DNA of 33,342 nt from an uncultured Gammaproteobacteria bacterium (lineage in GTDB: Bacteria > Pseudomonadota > Gammaproteobacteria > CAMYKB01): assembly GCA_947258875.1 (NCBI GenBank), contig CAMYKB010000003.1, positions 76,358-109,699 on the forward strand. Reading direction: 5' to 3'. A program made the translations under genes and the position numbers. The notes beneath the pieces were generated by a model. The model saw nothing but the letters and a program-made list of their open reading frames with translations. It did no database searches and was not told the origin of the DNA. Numbering within the stretch: the stretch's first letter is position 1; every line of letters begins with the position of its first letter. Shown piece by piece: positions 4,955-33,342 of this stretch.

Positions 4955-5079
4955 AATAAAACCATATAAAAAAAGTGGACATAACGAGCTACTCATACAT
5001 TATATAGTGACATTGCTGACCATTGCGCGGATGGCTTTAAGACCGTTGGCAGCTGGTATATAGTACGTCGCATTCACCG

Positions 5080-5250
5080 CTCGTTGGGAGAGACCCTGCA
5101 AGGCAGGGCGCCGAAGGCGCAAAGCCGCCCGGAAACGCTCAGGCAAAAGGACCAGCGAGAGGTAATCAACTCTGGAGAGCGGCCCGACGGGGTCCACCGA
5201 AGGGGAGGTTCTACTTTGGATGGAACAATCTCTCAGGTAACAGGACAGAG
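5080..5250 (+). promoter_or_regulatory. Tandem glycine riboswitch (gcvT motif, two aptamers)
   Basis: Two consecutive aptamers are visible. Aptamer 1 is closed by P1 arms CTCGTTGG (5080-5087) and CCAGCGAG (5152-5159) and contains GGAGAGACC, the GCCGAAGG core loop and CTCAGGCAAAAGGACC. Aptamer 2 is closed by CTCTG (5170-5174) and CAGAG (5246-5250) and contains GGAGAG, CACCGAAGGGG and CTCTCAGGTAACAGGACAG. These are the conserved blocks of the cooperative glycine riboswitch. It sits directly upstream of gcvT, so glycine should control the glycine-cleavage operon. A possible extended -10 (TG then TATATA at 5057-5062) lies just upstream, with no convincing -35. Confidence 0.93.
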
Positions 5251-5294
5251 GGGCGGCCAGCATGCAGCGATGCATTGTTGGCCGCCCCTTTTTT
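5250..5294 (+). terminator. Intrinsic terminator of the glycine riboswitch expression platform
   Basis: A GC-rich stem, GGGGCGGCCA (5250-5259) paired with TGGCCGCCCC (5279-5288), is followed at once by six T. It begins at the last base of the second aptamer's P1 stem and ends 13 bp before the gcvT start, so it lies between riboswitch and gene. This placement indicates control by premature termination. Known glycine riboswitches upstream of gcv genes are usually ON switches; which state forms with glycine bound here cannot be read with certainty from sequence. Confidence 0.85.
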
Positions 5295-5307
5295 ATTGGA
5301 GGTTTTA

Positions 5308-6396
5308 ATGACGCAACGCACAGCCCTGTACGACGCCCACGTTGCGAGTGGTGCACGCATGGTCGATTTTGGCGGTTGGATTATGCCGCTACATTATGGC
5401 TCGCAGCTCGAGGAGCATCATCAGGTTCGCAAGGATGCCGGTATGTTCGATACCTCGCACATGACGGTGGTTGATGTGGAAGGCACGGGCGCCAAAGCCT
5501 ATTTGCAATATCTGTTTGCCAATGATGTAGCCAAGCTGAAAACGCCAGGCAAAGCCTTGTACAGCTGCATGCTCAATGAACAGGCCGGGGTGATCGATGA
5601 CCTGATCACATACTACTTATCTGATACCTTTTACCGGGTGGTTGTTAATGCTGCGACCCGTGAAAAAGATATTGCCTGGTTGCAGCGGCAGGCCAAGGCG
5701 TTTGAGGTGAACCTCATTGAGCGTAATGAGTTGTCGATGATCGCCATCCAGGGACCAAATGCGCGTAACAAAGCGCTGGGATTATTAACGGATGAAGACC
5801 GCGTAACGGCGCAGGCACTTAAGCCCTTCTCGGCAGCGCAGTTGGGTGATTTATTTGTCGCCCGCACAGGCTACACTGGTGAAGACGGTTTTGAAGTCAT
5901 ACTGCCGAACGCACGAGCCGCAGATTTTTGGCGGGGCCTGGTGGCTGCAGGTGTGCAACCGGCCGGGTTAGGTGCGCGTGATACCCTGCGTCTGGAAGCA
6001 GGCATGAATCTTTACGGCACCGATATGGATGAAAGTATTACGCCATTGGAATGTGGTTTGAGCTGGACGGTCGCCTGGGAACCGGTAGAGCGTGAATTCA
6101 TTGGTCGTGCTGCAATTGAGGCCCAGCGTGCAGCAGGCCCGGCGTGCAAATTTGTTGGTCTGGTGCTGGAAGGCAAGGGTGTGCTTCGGGGTCACCAGAA
6201 AGTTGTCGTTGCAGGTGTTGGTGAAGGTGAGATCACAAGCGGTACGTTTTCACCTACACTCAAGGTGGCCATCGCTATGGCGAGGGTGCCTGCAGCCACC
6301 GGCGACCAATGCCAGGTCGAGATCCGTGGCAAGCTGTTAACGGCGAAAGTGGTTAAGCCACCGTTTGTGCGCAACGGTAAATCTTGTCTGGATTGA
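5308..6396 (+). CDS. gcvT: Aminomethyltransferase, glycine cleavage T protein
   Basis: A 362-residue protein matching GcvT: N-terminal [21 protein letters not shown], the [16 protein letters not shown] folate-site block, and [10 protein letters not shown] further on. It transfers the methylene group from the lipoyl arm of GcvH to tetrahydrofolate, releasing ammonia. I chose ATG 5308 because it has a strong ribosome-binding site (GGAGG, 5298-5302) immediately before it; the frame is open further upstream but that runs through the riboswitch terminator. It is the first gene of gcvT-gcvH-gcvPA-tpx-gcvPB under the glycine riboswitch. Confidence 0.96.
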
Positions 6397-20024: not shown

Positions 20025-20045
20025 GAAATATATTTTTCTGGTATA

Positions 20046-20078
20046 AAGAAGGGGTGCTCTAAAGCACCCCTTCTTTAT
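20046..20078 (+). terminator. Strong intrinsic terminator
   Basis: A 13-bp stem, AAGAAGGGGTGCT (20046-20058) and AGCACCCCTTCTT (20063-20075), with a CTAA loop and adjoining T-rich sequence on the 3' side. The A-rich 5' arm makes it potentially bidirectional. It follows the PhoX remnant stop by 22 bp. Confidence 0.9.
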
Positions 20079-21764: not shown

Positions 21765-22102
21765 AAACCAGAGATATTGGCCAGCCGCTCAATTTGTGTC
21801 GAGCCGTGTCGTGCCACTTATCGCCACAAAACCTTGATGCCATCCCATCGCTCCGCTTTAAAACTATGAAAAAATAATCTAACAATGAGCGAATTGAGGG
21901 AAAATCGAGTCTGACGCACTACTAATGTCCCACCAACGCGTCATTCCCGCGCAGGCGGGAATCTAGTGAACACGAATGGTATATAAATCAATTGTTTGCT
22001 GAATGTCTGGCCTCGGTAACTGGACCTACCCATAAACATGACGCCTCGATTTCAATCGCTAGAAACGAGGTGGGCCACCAAAAAAAGAGTGCCAAAAAGC
22101 TC
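21765..22102. other. 338-bp intergenic region with a REP-like palindrome
   Basis: No gene is supported; the frame of the downstream acetyltransferase is open back to 21992 but that extension does not look like its family. The only clear structure is the palindrome at 21943-21962. I looked for an attC-like site here, which would mark the left side of the cassette, and did not find one. Confidence 0.4.
21943..21962. repeat. REP-like extragenic palindrome
   Basis: ATTCCCGC (21943-21950), loop GCAG, GCGGGAAT (21955-21962): a perfect 8-bp-arm palindrome in the context CGTC...CTAG. This motif is widespread as an interspersed extragenic palindrome in many proteobacteria. Only one copy is visible in this window. 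Confidence 0.7.
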
Positions 22103-22615
22103 GTGAACCTGAATCTCACAATAAGGAACGAATCTGATGGCGATTTCACAGCAATAACTGATGTGACGGTCGCTGCATTTAAGTCTCTTGAGATCAGCAA
22201 CCATACTGAGCAATTTATAATAGAGGCCCTTCGCGCCGACAACGCTCTCTCTATATCGTTCGTAGCAGAAATTGACGGGCATGTGATCGGACATATCGCG
22301 TTTTCGCCTCTGAAGATTTCAGATGGCGCACAAGATTGGTATGGTCTAGGCCCTGTTTCAGTATTGCCAGAGTTCCAACGAAAAGGTGTTGGCAAGGCTT
22401 TAATAGAGGAAGGATTGTCACGGCTTAAAGATATGAATGCGCGAGGATGTTGTCTTGTTGGACATCCGGAATACTACAGGAAATTCGGGTTTGAGAATGT
22501 ATCGAGCCTTGTGTGCGAGGGAGTGCCCAAAGAGGTGTTCTTCGCTCTTTCTTTCAGCGAGTACATGCCGCAGGGGAAGGTCACTTTTCATGAGGCGTTT
22601 AAAGCAAATGGCTAA
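22103..22615 (+). CDS. GNAT family N-acetyltransferase, probable integron cassette gene
   Basis: A 170-residue GNAT protein (YhbS-like) starting at GTG 22103: LTIRNESDGDFTAITDVTVAAF, then VAEIDGHVIGHIAFSPLKI, the acetyl-CoA site LGPVSVLPEFQRKGVGKALIEEGL in two steps, and HPEYYRKFGFENV. The substrate is not predictable. The frame is open to 21992, but the conserved family start fits 22103. The stop TAA (22613-22615) lies inside the first box of an attC-like site, the hallmark of gene-cassette genes. Confidence 0.85.
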   Translation: MNLNLTIRNESDGDFTAITDVTVAAFKSLEISNHTEQFIIEALRADNALSISFVAEIDGHVIGHIAFSPLKISDGAQDWYGLGPVSVLPEFQRKGVGKALIEEGLSRLKDMNARGCCLVGHPEYYRKFGFENVSSLVCEGVPKEVFFALSFSEYMPQGKVTFHEAFKANG

Positions 22616-22684
22616 CAATAACGTTAACTACGCGCCTGCGGCGCCGGACGCTCCTTCGTCGCACCGGTTACGTTGACGTTAGGC
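22610..22684 (+). other. attC-like recombination site of an integron gene cassette
   Basis: A 75-bp imperfect inverted repeat. It starts with GGCTAAC (22610-22616, one mismatch to RYYYAAC) and ends with GTTAGGC (22678-22684, exact GTTRRRY). Inside, the left arm has AACGTTAA and the right arm TTACGTTG; their pairing leaves an unpaired T, as expected of the extrahelical bases that set strand choice. The centre folds into GCGCC-TGC-GGCGC and a second small hairpin. Length, box order and overlap with the upstream stop codon all fit attC. The presumed recombination point is after G22678. Confidence 0.75.
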
Positions 22685-22772
22685 ATTCCACGTGCCGCGT
22701 CTTAACTGACATAATGCTGTCAGTAGTGTAGATGTATGATTGATACCTCCAACATATACAAGGATAGAAAAA

Positions 22773-23174
22773 ATGGCTAGTGAAAACCTAAGTGTCATTT
22801 CTCACATTTCAATCGGTACGAACAGTTTCGAACGTGCTATTTCTTTCTACGATAAGGTGCTTATTACCCTGGGTTGCAAGCAGATCATGCAGCACCCTGG
22901 TGCAGTCGCTTATGGTCGAGAATTTCCCGAATTTTGGGTGCAAACTCCCATAGATGGAAAGCCTGCCACCGTAGGGAATGGGTCACATATTGGCTTTGTC
23001 GCTAACTCAAAAGAAGAAGTTCATGCTTTTTATGAGGCTGCACTAAACAATGGTGGTGAAGATGATGGCGCTCCAGGTCCTAGACCAGACTATGGTGAAG
23101 CTTATTACGGATGTTTTGTCAGAGATCTGGACGGGAATAAGATTGAGGCAACCTTTTGGAATGAAGAATTATAG
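22773..23174 (+). CDS. VOC/glyoxalase-bleomycin resistance superfamily protein, probable cassette gene
   Basis: A 133-residue single VOC-fold protein: ISHISIGTNSFERAISFYDKVL at the start, HIGFVANSKEEVHAFYEAAL in the middle, and YYGCFVRDLDGNKIEATFW at the end. The His near the start, the His of HIGF and the late Glu are in the positions of VOC metal ligands. The substrate is unknown; relatives are annotated as lactoylglutathione lyase-like. ATG 22773 is used, since the upstream in-frame extension lacks similarity. It begins 89 bp after the first attC-like site and ends 17 bp before a second, weaker one. Confidence 0.87.
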   Translation: MASENLSVISHISIGTNSFERAISFYDKVLITLGCKQIMQHPGAVAYGREFPEFWVQTPIDGKPATVGNGSHIGFVANSKEEVHAFYEAALNNGGEDDGAPGPRPDYGEAYYGCFVRDLDGNKIEATFWNEEL

Positions 23175-23190
23175 GCGTAATTAAAAAAAT

Positions 23191-23234
23191 GCCCAACAAG
23201 CGCGGCAGCAAGCTCCTCACTGCGATCGTTAGGA
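23191..23234 (+). other. Possible degenerate or partial attC-like site
   Basis: GCCCAAC (23191-23197, exact RYYYAAC) and GTTAGGA (23228-23234, one mismatch to GTTRRRY) bracket a 44-bp segment with GGCAG/CTGC pairing in the middle. The position just after the VOC stop is right for a cassette end. The segment is shorter than typical attC sites and its L boxes are weak, so it may be decayed. Confidence 0.4.
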
Positions 23235-23337
23235 TAACCGGGTATGGCCGAAAGTCGATCTTGAGGACAGATGCGTTTGCAGTTAATTCTGTGTGCTGGC
23301 ACAAAACTACGCAGTAGATGCCATTGTCCAATGCGCA

Positions 23338-31282: not shown

Positions 31283-32098
31283 ATGAATATACGGCCCACG
31301 ACACGTTGGTGTTTCCGAATCCCGCTTGGCTTACTGTCCTGTGCAGGACTACTGCTGATGCTCGCCAGTTATCCGCTAAAAGCCGAACCGCAAACACGGG
31401 CTGAGGTCGAAAAGATCATCGAAGCAGCCACCCGCTCTATCAAGGCACAACCGAATAAGGGGCAGTTCTATATCGATAGAGGGCAGGCCTATTTTAAGAT
31501 ACATGAATTCGATAAGGCTGCTGAGGATTACAGCAAGGCCATTGAACTGGACGATTCACAGGACGAAGCCTATTTCGGCCGCGGTATGGCGCTGGGCAGG
31601 GCAGGATTCATTGAAGATGGCATCAGCGATCTGACGGTCTACATACAGCGCAACCCTAAGAGTTCGCTAGCTTATACCAAGCGCGGCATACGCAATCTGT
31701 GGCTGGGTGATCGTGGCAAAGCGGAAGCGGACTTTAAAAAGGCCATCGAGCTGGATAGCAGGAATGCTGAGGCGCATGATGATCTTGGTGTGATCTACGC
31801 GCAGCGTGAACAATATCAGGAGGCTGGTTCACACTTCATGACAACCATTAGCCTCGATCCCAGTTACCAGAAGGCGTATCACAACCTGTCGATGGTGTAT
31901 TACCTCACAGGCAATGATTCTGAAGCGCTGGCAACCATCGATAAAGGCCTGCAACTAAGTCCGGAGGCCCGTAATTCGATGATGTTGAAAAGCCTGATCT
32001 TGGAATCCATGGGCAAGCTCGATGAGGCGGCGGCTGTAAAGGAAGTGGCCGAGTTCCTGCCGAAAGGTAATTGGTCCGAGCAGGCGCCGGTACAATAA
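31283..32098 (+). CDS. Exported tetratricopeptide-repeat protein
   Basis: A 271-residue protein. Residues 1-35 are a long signal peptide or anchor (GLLSCAGLLLMLASYPLKA). About six consecutive 34-residue TPR units follow, for example FYIDRGQAYFKIHEFDKAAE, AYTKRGIRNLWLGDRGKAEA, and AYHNLSMVYYLTGNDSEALA. It probably serves as a protein-binding scaffold in the periplasm. ATG 31283 is preferred because GGAGG (31272-31276) lies 6 bp before it; ATG 31277 would be too close. No neighbour indicates a partner. Confidence 0.85.
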   Translation: MNIRPTTRWCFRIPLGLLSCAGLLLMLASYPLKAEPQTRAEVEKIIEAATRSIKAQPNKGQFYIDRGQAYFKIHEFDKAAEDYSKAIELDDSQDEAYFGRGMALGRAGFIEDGISDLTVYIQRNPKSSLAYTKRGIRNLWLGDRGKAEADFKKAIELDSRNAEAHDDLGVIYAQREQYQEAGSHFMTTISLDPSYQKAYHNLSMVYYLTGNDSEALATIDKGLQLSPEARNSMMLKSLILESMGKLDEAAAVKEVAEFLPKGNWSEQAPVQ

Positions 32099-32244
32099 AC
32101 TGCGGTTATCATTCATCCTTGCAGGATTGCATGGAGCGACATCACGAGAATGACTATTTGCGGGCTTGCGGCAAGCAGAAGAATTGCACTGTCATCATTA
32201 GCTGTGCTGCAATAACATACCTATCCTCTGCGGGTTGATTCGCA

Positions 32245-32994
32245 TTGAACTTCAAAGATCATTTTTCCACGCAATCCGTGGGTTATAGCCAATACCGCCC
32301 GGAATACCCGGTTGATCTGTTTCGTTATCTTGCAACATTGACGGCAAATCAAGAATGCGTCTGGGATTGCGCCTCCGGCACGGGACAAGCGGCGCGTGGT
32401 CTGGCGCCATATTTTGATACTGTCATTGCAACCGATGCCAGCGACGAGCAGGTCGCAAATGCATACGGGCCTGATAATGTTGAATTCGCGGTGGCGAATG
32501 CGACGGCCAGCGGCCTGACCGCGGGCACGGTGGACCTCGTCGTTGTTGCGCAGGCGCTGCACTGGTTTGATCTTCAGAAATTTTATTCAGAAGTAAAACG
32601 AGTATTGAAAAACAAAGGGGTTATCGCAGTGTGGTGTTACAGTCTGCACAGAATCTCGCCGCAGATCGATGTCATCATTGATGATCTTTATACCAATATT
32701 GTTGGCTCTTACTGGCCGCCGGAAAGGCGTCTCGTCGAGAGTGGTTACCGCGATCTTGATTTTCCGTTTGAGGGGATTGTATCGCCACAATTTGAGATGC
32801 AGGCGCAGTGGTCATTACAACAACTCACCGGTTACCTGGAGACCTGGTCAGCCACTCAGCGTTATATCGCGCACAAGGGTGAAAGCCCCGTGCCGGATAT
32901 CACTGATCGCTTGCTGGGAGTGTGGGATCCGCCCGATAAGAAACGCACAGTTAACTGGCCTTTAGCGTGCCGTGTCGGTGTGCTTCACCATTAA
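32245..32994 (+). CDS. Class I SAM-dependent methyltransferase (methyltransferase type 11)
   Basis: A 249-residue protein with the SAM-binding block VWDCASGTGQAARGLAPYF, the acidic loop ATDAS, and VDLVVVAQALHWFDLQKFYSEVKRVLKNKGVIAVW in the typical order. Later parts (SYWPPERRLVESGYRDLDFPFE and YLETWSATQRY) match a common family of uncharacterised methyltransferases that begin MNFKDHFS. The start must be TTG 32245, since that family start coincides with it and no ATG is near. The substrate is unknown. Confidence 0.85.
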   Translation: MNFKDHFSTQSVGYSQYRPEYPVDLFRYLATLTANQECVWDCASGTGQAARGLAPYFDTVIATDASDEQVANAYGPDNVEFAVANATASGLTAGTVDLVVVAQALHWFDLQKFYSEVKRVLKNKGVIAVWCYSLHRISPQIDVIIDDLYTNIVGSYWPPERRLVESGYRDLDFPFEGIVSPQFEMQAQWSLQQLTGYLETWSATQRYIAHKGESPVPDITDRLLGVWDPPDKKRTVNWPLACRVGVLHH

Positions 32995-33126
32995 TGAGCT
33001 AATGGCACCTTCATAAGCAACAGCACGCCGTCACGATTTGCTATTTTTGATAATAAGACGGCCTGCGTATAATCTAAATTAGAAACAGTGAGTTACGGAA
33101 GAACATTAGAAATAACTTATTCATGT

Positions 33127-33150
33127 TAAACTGACCGACGGGTCAGTTTA
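33127..33150. promoter_or_regulatory. TetR-family-type operator palindrome
   Basis: TAAACTGACC (33127-33136), spacer GACG, GGTCAGTTTA (33141-33150): a perfect palindrome with 10-bp arms. CTGACC/GGTCAG half-sites are common for TetR/AcrR-type repressors. The regulated gene is presumably beyond the right edge, where no start is yet visible. Confidence 0.6.
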
Positions 33151-33236
33151 GTCAACTGTTGCGATAGACGCATAAGACTAAATAATTATTACAAAGAAAA
33201 ATAAGTGATTGGACGATACGTTGAAGAAATGTTATC

Positions 33237-33299
33237 AAGCGAAGCGTAGTTCTGCTTCAGCAAAACGAGTTTTTGCTGAAGCAGAACTACGCTTCGCTT
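33237..33299. repeat. Perfect 29-bp-arm inverted repeat with 5-nt loop
   Basis: The left arm (33237-33265) starts AAGCGAAGCGTAG and ends CAGCAAAA; the loop is CGAGT; the right arm (33271-33299) is its exact reverse complement. No T-run follows, so it is not a standard terminator. Each arm also holds GAAGC/GCTTC, allowing smaller internal folds. Confidence 0.95.
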
Positions 33300-33342
33300 C
33301 AAAGAGTTCAACATATCCTTCCTGTCTTCTTTATCTTGTATT

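Follow-up and report, generated by a model that had tools for sequence, protein, structure and literature searches.

A perfect hairpin with 29-bp arms, found at the end of a contig from an uncultured gammaproteobacterium, lies within an integron gene cassette and is not a stand-alone element, nor probably a new kind of element. This cassette, with matched attI and attC boundaries, is present in four copies in the same genome, in which the inverted repeat is perfect, imperfect, or largely deleted, with the differences clustering in a single arm. We favor, at a probability of about 0.68, the explanation that an imperfect inverted repeat (quasipalindrome) in the cassette was homogenized by a template switch and that the resulting hairpin was then copied to two loci. 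The hairpin is thus probably a recent mutational by-product.

The hairpin and its cassette

The window, i.e., the whole stretch of 33,342 nucleotides that was analyzed, has its right edge at the end of contig C3. Its relevant features are listed below, together with their counterparts on contigs C11, C38, and C17 of the same genome.

33010 to 33125, plus strand: integron platform remnant, attI side, homologue of the C38 intI promoter region (C3/C38 alignment)
33126 to 33149, no strand assigned: attI-adjacent hairpin, with pairing kept and sequence different in other integron copies
33158 to 33164, plus strand: attI/cassette junction G/TTGCGA, the left boundary of the cassette, marked by a jump in identity and a complementary R'' box
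33159 to 33342, plus strand: first-position gene cassette, visible for 184 of about 262 bp; full-length homologue at C38:31932-32200
33209 to 33342, plus strand: open frame from TTG, no relatives found
33237 to 33265, plus strand: left hairpin arm, shared by the four copies (only the first 20 nt in C17)
33266 to 33270, plus strand: loop CGAGT, 5 nt
33271 to 33299, plus strand: right hairpin arm, identical in C11, a 30-nt imperfect version in C38, mostly deleted in C17

The inverted-repeat search recovered the two arms (29 of 29 positions paired, 100% complementary, 5 nt apart) as the first-pass annotation had described them. Among perfect inverted repeats with a loop of up to 10 nt, the longest had arms of 29 bp in the real window and at most 11 bp in 30 Markov simulations, well above chance, and the next longest perfect inverted repeat within the window measured 16 bp. 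The hairpin region folds very stably as RNA on both strands (z = -10.7 on the plus strand, -11.9 on the minus strand). Both strands are open through it, as had been noted: a minus-strand frame of 41 codons (33314-33189, AGGAAGG upstream) and a plus-strand frame through 33221, which reaches further 5', to the TTG at 33209. Elsewhere in the window, a second perfect hairpin (20043-20078; 16-bp arms ATAAAGAAGGGGTGCT / AGCACCCCTTCTTTAT, 4-nt loop) is possibly a terminator, and an ordinary glycine riboswitch (5075-5164) lies upstream of a gcvT gene (5275-6396).

Several identities were considered for the 29-bp hairpin and rejected. It was already reported to lack a T-run, and none was found; the pairing of a GC-rich stem with a U tract that defines a rho-independent terminator is absent, and this identity was ruled out. 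A known RNA was likewise excluded, given that no Rfam family matched at the gathering score and the sub-threshold matches were generic long stems. For the hairpin itself to be an attC site, its flanking boxes (GTTGAA...TTCAAC) would have to come in the opposite order, but GTT precedes AAC. A protein-coding cassette was rejected for either strand: the frames of the C3 copy have no relatives in Pfam, and searches with the 71-aa ORF of C38 against Pfam, plasmids, viral contigs, and 369 class genomes gave no convincing relative (a single weak protein match, in G170 with an E-value of 0.008, looks like chance on inspection).

The hairpin is placed inside a first-position cassette of about 262 bp by a sharp left boundary, G/TTGCGA, and by an R'' box complementary to it. 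Across this junction, identity in pairwise comparisons rises from 48–87% upstream to 88–97% downstream; at CT/GTTGCGA, it changes from 63% to 96% between C3 and C38, and from 60% to 88% between C38 and C17. A GTT core at attI was found in all four copies, and the motif GTTGCGA departs from GTTRRRY at two positions. The full-length C38 homologue (31932-32200) terminates in an attC site (...ACGTTAGGC), and the right ends of the two complete copies, C38 and C17, have the attC-like arrangement TCGCAAC-AAGTYGCTACATTG...CAATGAGCTYAATAC-GTTAGGC with a bottom-strand fold, in which the R boxes pair at 7 of 7 positions and the stem folds. In both, the R'' box reads TCGCAAC and complements the left boundary exactly. 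This pairing between left boundary and R'' box is the signature of an integrated cassette. By analogy with C38 and C17, the attC of the C3 copy would be located beyond the contig end.

Integron platforms and the probable spread of the cassette

An integron integrase gene or remnant (PF13495; TIGR02249) adjoins three of the four cassette copies (C11, C38, and C17). The window locus lacks intI and has a methyltransferase gene (32245-32994) ahead of the attI remnant, which is included in a 321-bp region of 82.6% identity between C3 and C38. All four platforms, one of them without an integrase, have this cassette in first position. The 3-Mb genome contains at least five integron integrase genes or remnants (C41, C38, C11, C17, and C53), only one of which is intact: the C41 integrase scores 508.7 bits against TIGR02249 (cutoff 265), whereas the fragments of C38, C11, and C17 match below this cutoff. 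C41 carries a full integron with an intact integrase, an attI-like junction, and cassettes with typical attC sites. Downstream of the shared cassette, C38 has another cassette, which carries an attC-like site of its own, and an IS transposase, and C17 has a VOC/glyoxalase gene and more genes of cassette type (the Pfam analysis covered the VOC gene and the 167-aa ORF of C17; the names GFA, YciI, and GNAT come from translations). The window also contains a second integron-like tract without an integrase (21992-23240), in which a GNAT acetyltransferase gene is followed by a good attC (about 22609-22685, GGCTAAC...GTTAGGC) and then by a VOC/glyoxalase gene and a degenerate attC.

The attI-adjacent hairpin differs in sequence among C3, C38, and C41 and retains its pairing. 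Hairpins occur at matching places in C38, C41 (L075), and the related integrons L081, L083, L090, and L097. In 10 of 18 integrons of the class, folding of the 65 nt that precede the presumed attI core surpasses 95% of shuffles, a count that includes C41 itself and in which some cores may be wrong because they were picked by a simple pattern. This hairpin might belong to the structure of attI or act as a transcription signal. No description of it was found in those parts of the literature that our search reached, although it may have been reported elsewhere.

The integrase and attI DNA of C11, C38, and C17 is about 69–73% identical (blastn). The C3, C11, and C38 cassettes share 96–97% identity over their first 80 bp and 90–99% beyond. 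Because the cassettes are more alike than the diverged platforms, the cassette most likely arrived in several platforms after these had diverged. C3 and C11 are also 87% alike over about 60 bp of attI immediately before the cassette and not beyond, a restriction suggesting that the two probably share a short copied tract. The last 99 nt of the window (33244-33342) are identical to the end of C11, which makes the contig break an effect of assembly (graph merge of two repeat copies). The contig end is not the source of the hairpin itself; an assembly artefact was rejected given that two contigs carry the hairpin with 1 bp between them and a third has an imperfect version.

The hairpin had been suggested to be a mobile palindrome, with a search for further copies as the check. 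Such a search did yield three additional sites in the genome (C11, C38, and C17), each of which lies in the cassette too. Apart from these four cassettes the palindrome occurs nowhere in the genome, and no copy was found in the other sequences compared; the suggestion in that form is not supported. What moves is the cassette as a whole, through the action of integrase. Insertion of the palindrome into the cassette as an independent REP- or MITE-like element is already contradicted and can be given almost no weight: it would fit a clean inverted repeat that is mostly missing from one copy, but no copy lies at an unrelated site and there is no target duplication, and C17, which keeps 20 nt of the left arm, looks like a deletion rather than an empty site. 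Comparison with 369 class genomes, plasmids, phages, and viral contigs recovered neither hairpin nor cassette (one DNA match in G160 looks like chance on inspection), an absence that says little because no compared genome is closer than the same class.

States of the inverted repeat among the four copies

The C3 and C11 hairpins differ by 1 bp, located in the left arm. Between C3 and C38, the left arm shows no differences, and the right arm of C38 is an imperfect partner of it, matching over 8 bp at each end with a disturbed middle. The right arms of these two copies differ by 6 events, all within a 16-column block, so that 6 changes fall in the 29-nt right arm, whereas the remaining 156 nt have 4 (p = 0.0012). 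C17 has lost most of the hairpin, with breakpoints at GCTTC direct repeats (33254 and 33296), a usual slippage product of a palindrome. Recent origin, as proposed by the first-pass annotation, is supported by this distribution, in which two of the four copies are perfect or have one mismatch, one is imperfect, and one is deleted, in otherwise similar surroundings.

A concentration of differences in one arm is expected if a template switch homogenized a quasipalindrome, and the 8-bp matches at both arm ends of C38 are what such a switch would need. An imperfect copy exists, and the clustered differences in the one arm are all explained by copying of the other. Under this mechanism, the ancestral cassette would have carried an imperfect inverted repeat at the hairpin position; during replication, the nascent strand would have turned back on itself or moved over to the opposite strand and used the left arm as the template for the right one, giving the fully complementary arms of C3 and C11 in a single event. 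Perfect stems produced at one stroke by template switching have been described (PMC8794818), and mutations associated with quasipalindromes are known from E. coli (PMC7202029). Copying of the end formed by attI and the cassette would then have brought the corrected hairpin to both C3 and C11. A one-off template-switch event, which the earlier annotation had named as the outcome that would undo its own proposal, is thus the best explanation, although its result is present twice; copying of the cassette end between loci accounts for the second occurrence.

From these four copies we infer a change from imperfect to perfect, made by polymerase template switching, and a lack of function. The direction is not proven, given that the only outgroup copy, C17, has lost the informative segment and C38 might be a damaged descendant of a perfect hairpin. 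Parsimony favors it, and so, weakly, does the open frame of C38: this plus-strand frame runs without a stop for 71 codons up to the attC core, and the arm change shifts it in C3 and C11, an argument limited by the lack of convincing relatives of this ORF. The opposite history, in which the perfect palindrome is ancestral (e.g., an inverted duplication at cassette formation) and both C38 and C17 decayed, appears unlikely. It agrees with the instability of long palindromes and with the different alterations of C17 and C38 at the palindrome, but C38 would need several substitutions and indels in one arm and none in the other, against a background of 4 changes in 156 nt elsewhere.

Possible roles and relation to known systems

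A function as an RNA or DNA structure is possible, though no result of the analysis supports one; the same hairpin at two loci could also reflect selection. The cassette may encode a structured small RNA, or carry the 5' structure of a transcript, with the hairpin kept perfect by selection. A role of this kind is conceivable because cassettes without large ORFs can encode sRNAs (sRNA-Xcc1) or carry promoters (PMC6557892) and because a promoter-like pair (TTGCGA-16-AATAAT) begins at the cassette boundary; the very stable fold on both strands and the perfect or near-perfect arms retained in two copies would also fit. We nevertheless regard it as improbable. The middle of one arm was not maintained in C38 and the hairpin is gone from C17, with no compensatory changes; the hairpin has neither a terminator nor an Rfam match at the gathering score, and searches of the 369 class genomes, plasmids, phages, and viral contigs did not recover it. 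The 5' structure of a transcript, raised by the first-pass annotation, is a possibility that gained no positive support. Less probable still, the cassette may be non-coding and serve regulation or enhance recombination, with its long perfect hairpin working as RNA or, while the cassette is being inserted, as folded single-stranded DNA; if true, this role would explain the same cassette in first position at several platforms of the genome.

The cassette resembles ORF-less first-position cassettes (TMB4, PMC6557892; Xanthomonas sRNA-Xcc1) in being short (about 262 bp), bounded by an attI junction and an attC, and, at three of the four platforms, next to an intI gene or remnant, and in having only small or unconserved ORFs. 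It differs from them in its 29-bp perfect palindrome, in its presence at four decayed platforms of one genome, and in being read from sequence alone. As in quasipalindrome correction and template-switch mutations (PMC7202029, PMC8794818, PMC8604942), a clustered change in one arm perfects an inverted repeat that already pairs at both ends; unlike the published cases, the change is seen in four paralogous copies only, and its direction is accordingly deduced. The decayed integrases, short arrays, and cassette genes such as those for GNAT and VOC proteins recall sedentary chromosomal integrons with inactivated intI (Xanthomonas, PMC12444791), from which this genome differs by having at least five integrase genes or remnants in 3 Mb and four platforms that share the first cassette.

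If the hairpin is functional, it would be an addition to the few known non-coding integron cassettes. The imperfect, perfect, and deleted states of one inverted repeat within one genome provide a small natural example of template switching: four copies turn an odd palindrome into a readable mutation and show how template switching can make long perfect stems. They also reveal a single cassette that spread to several old, now broken integron platforms in one genome.
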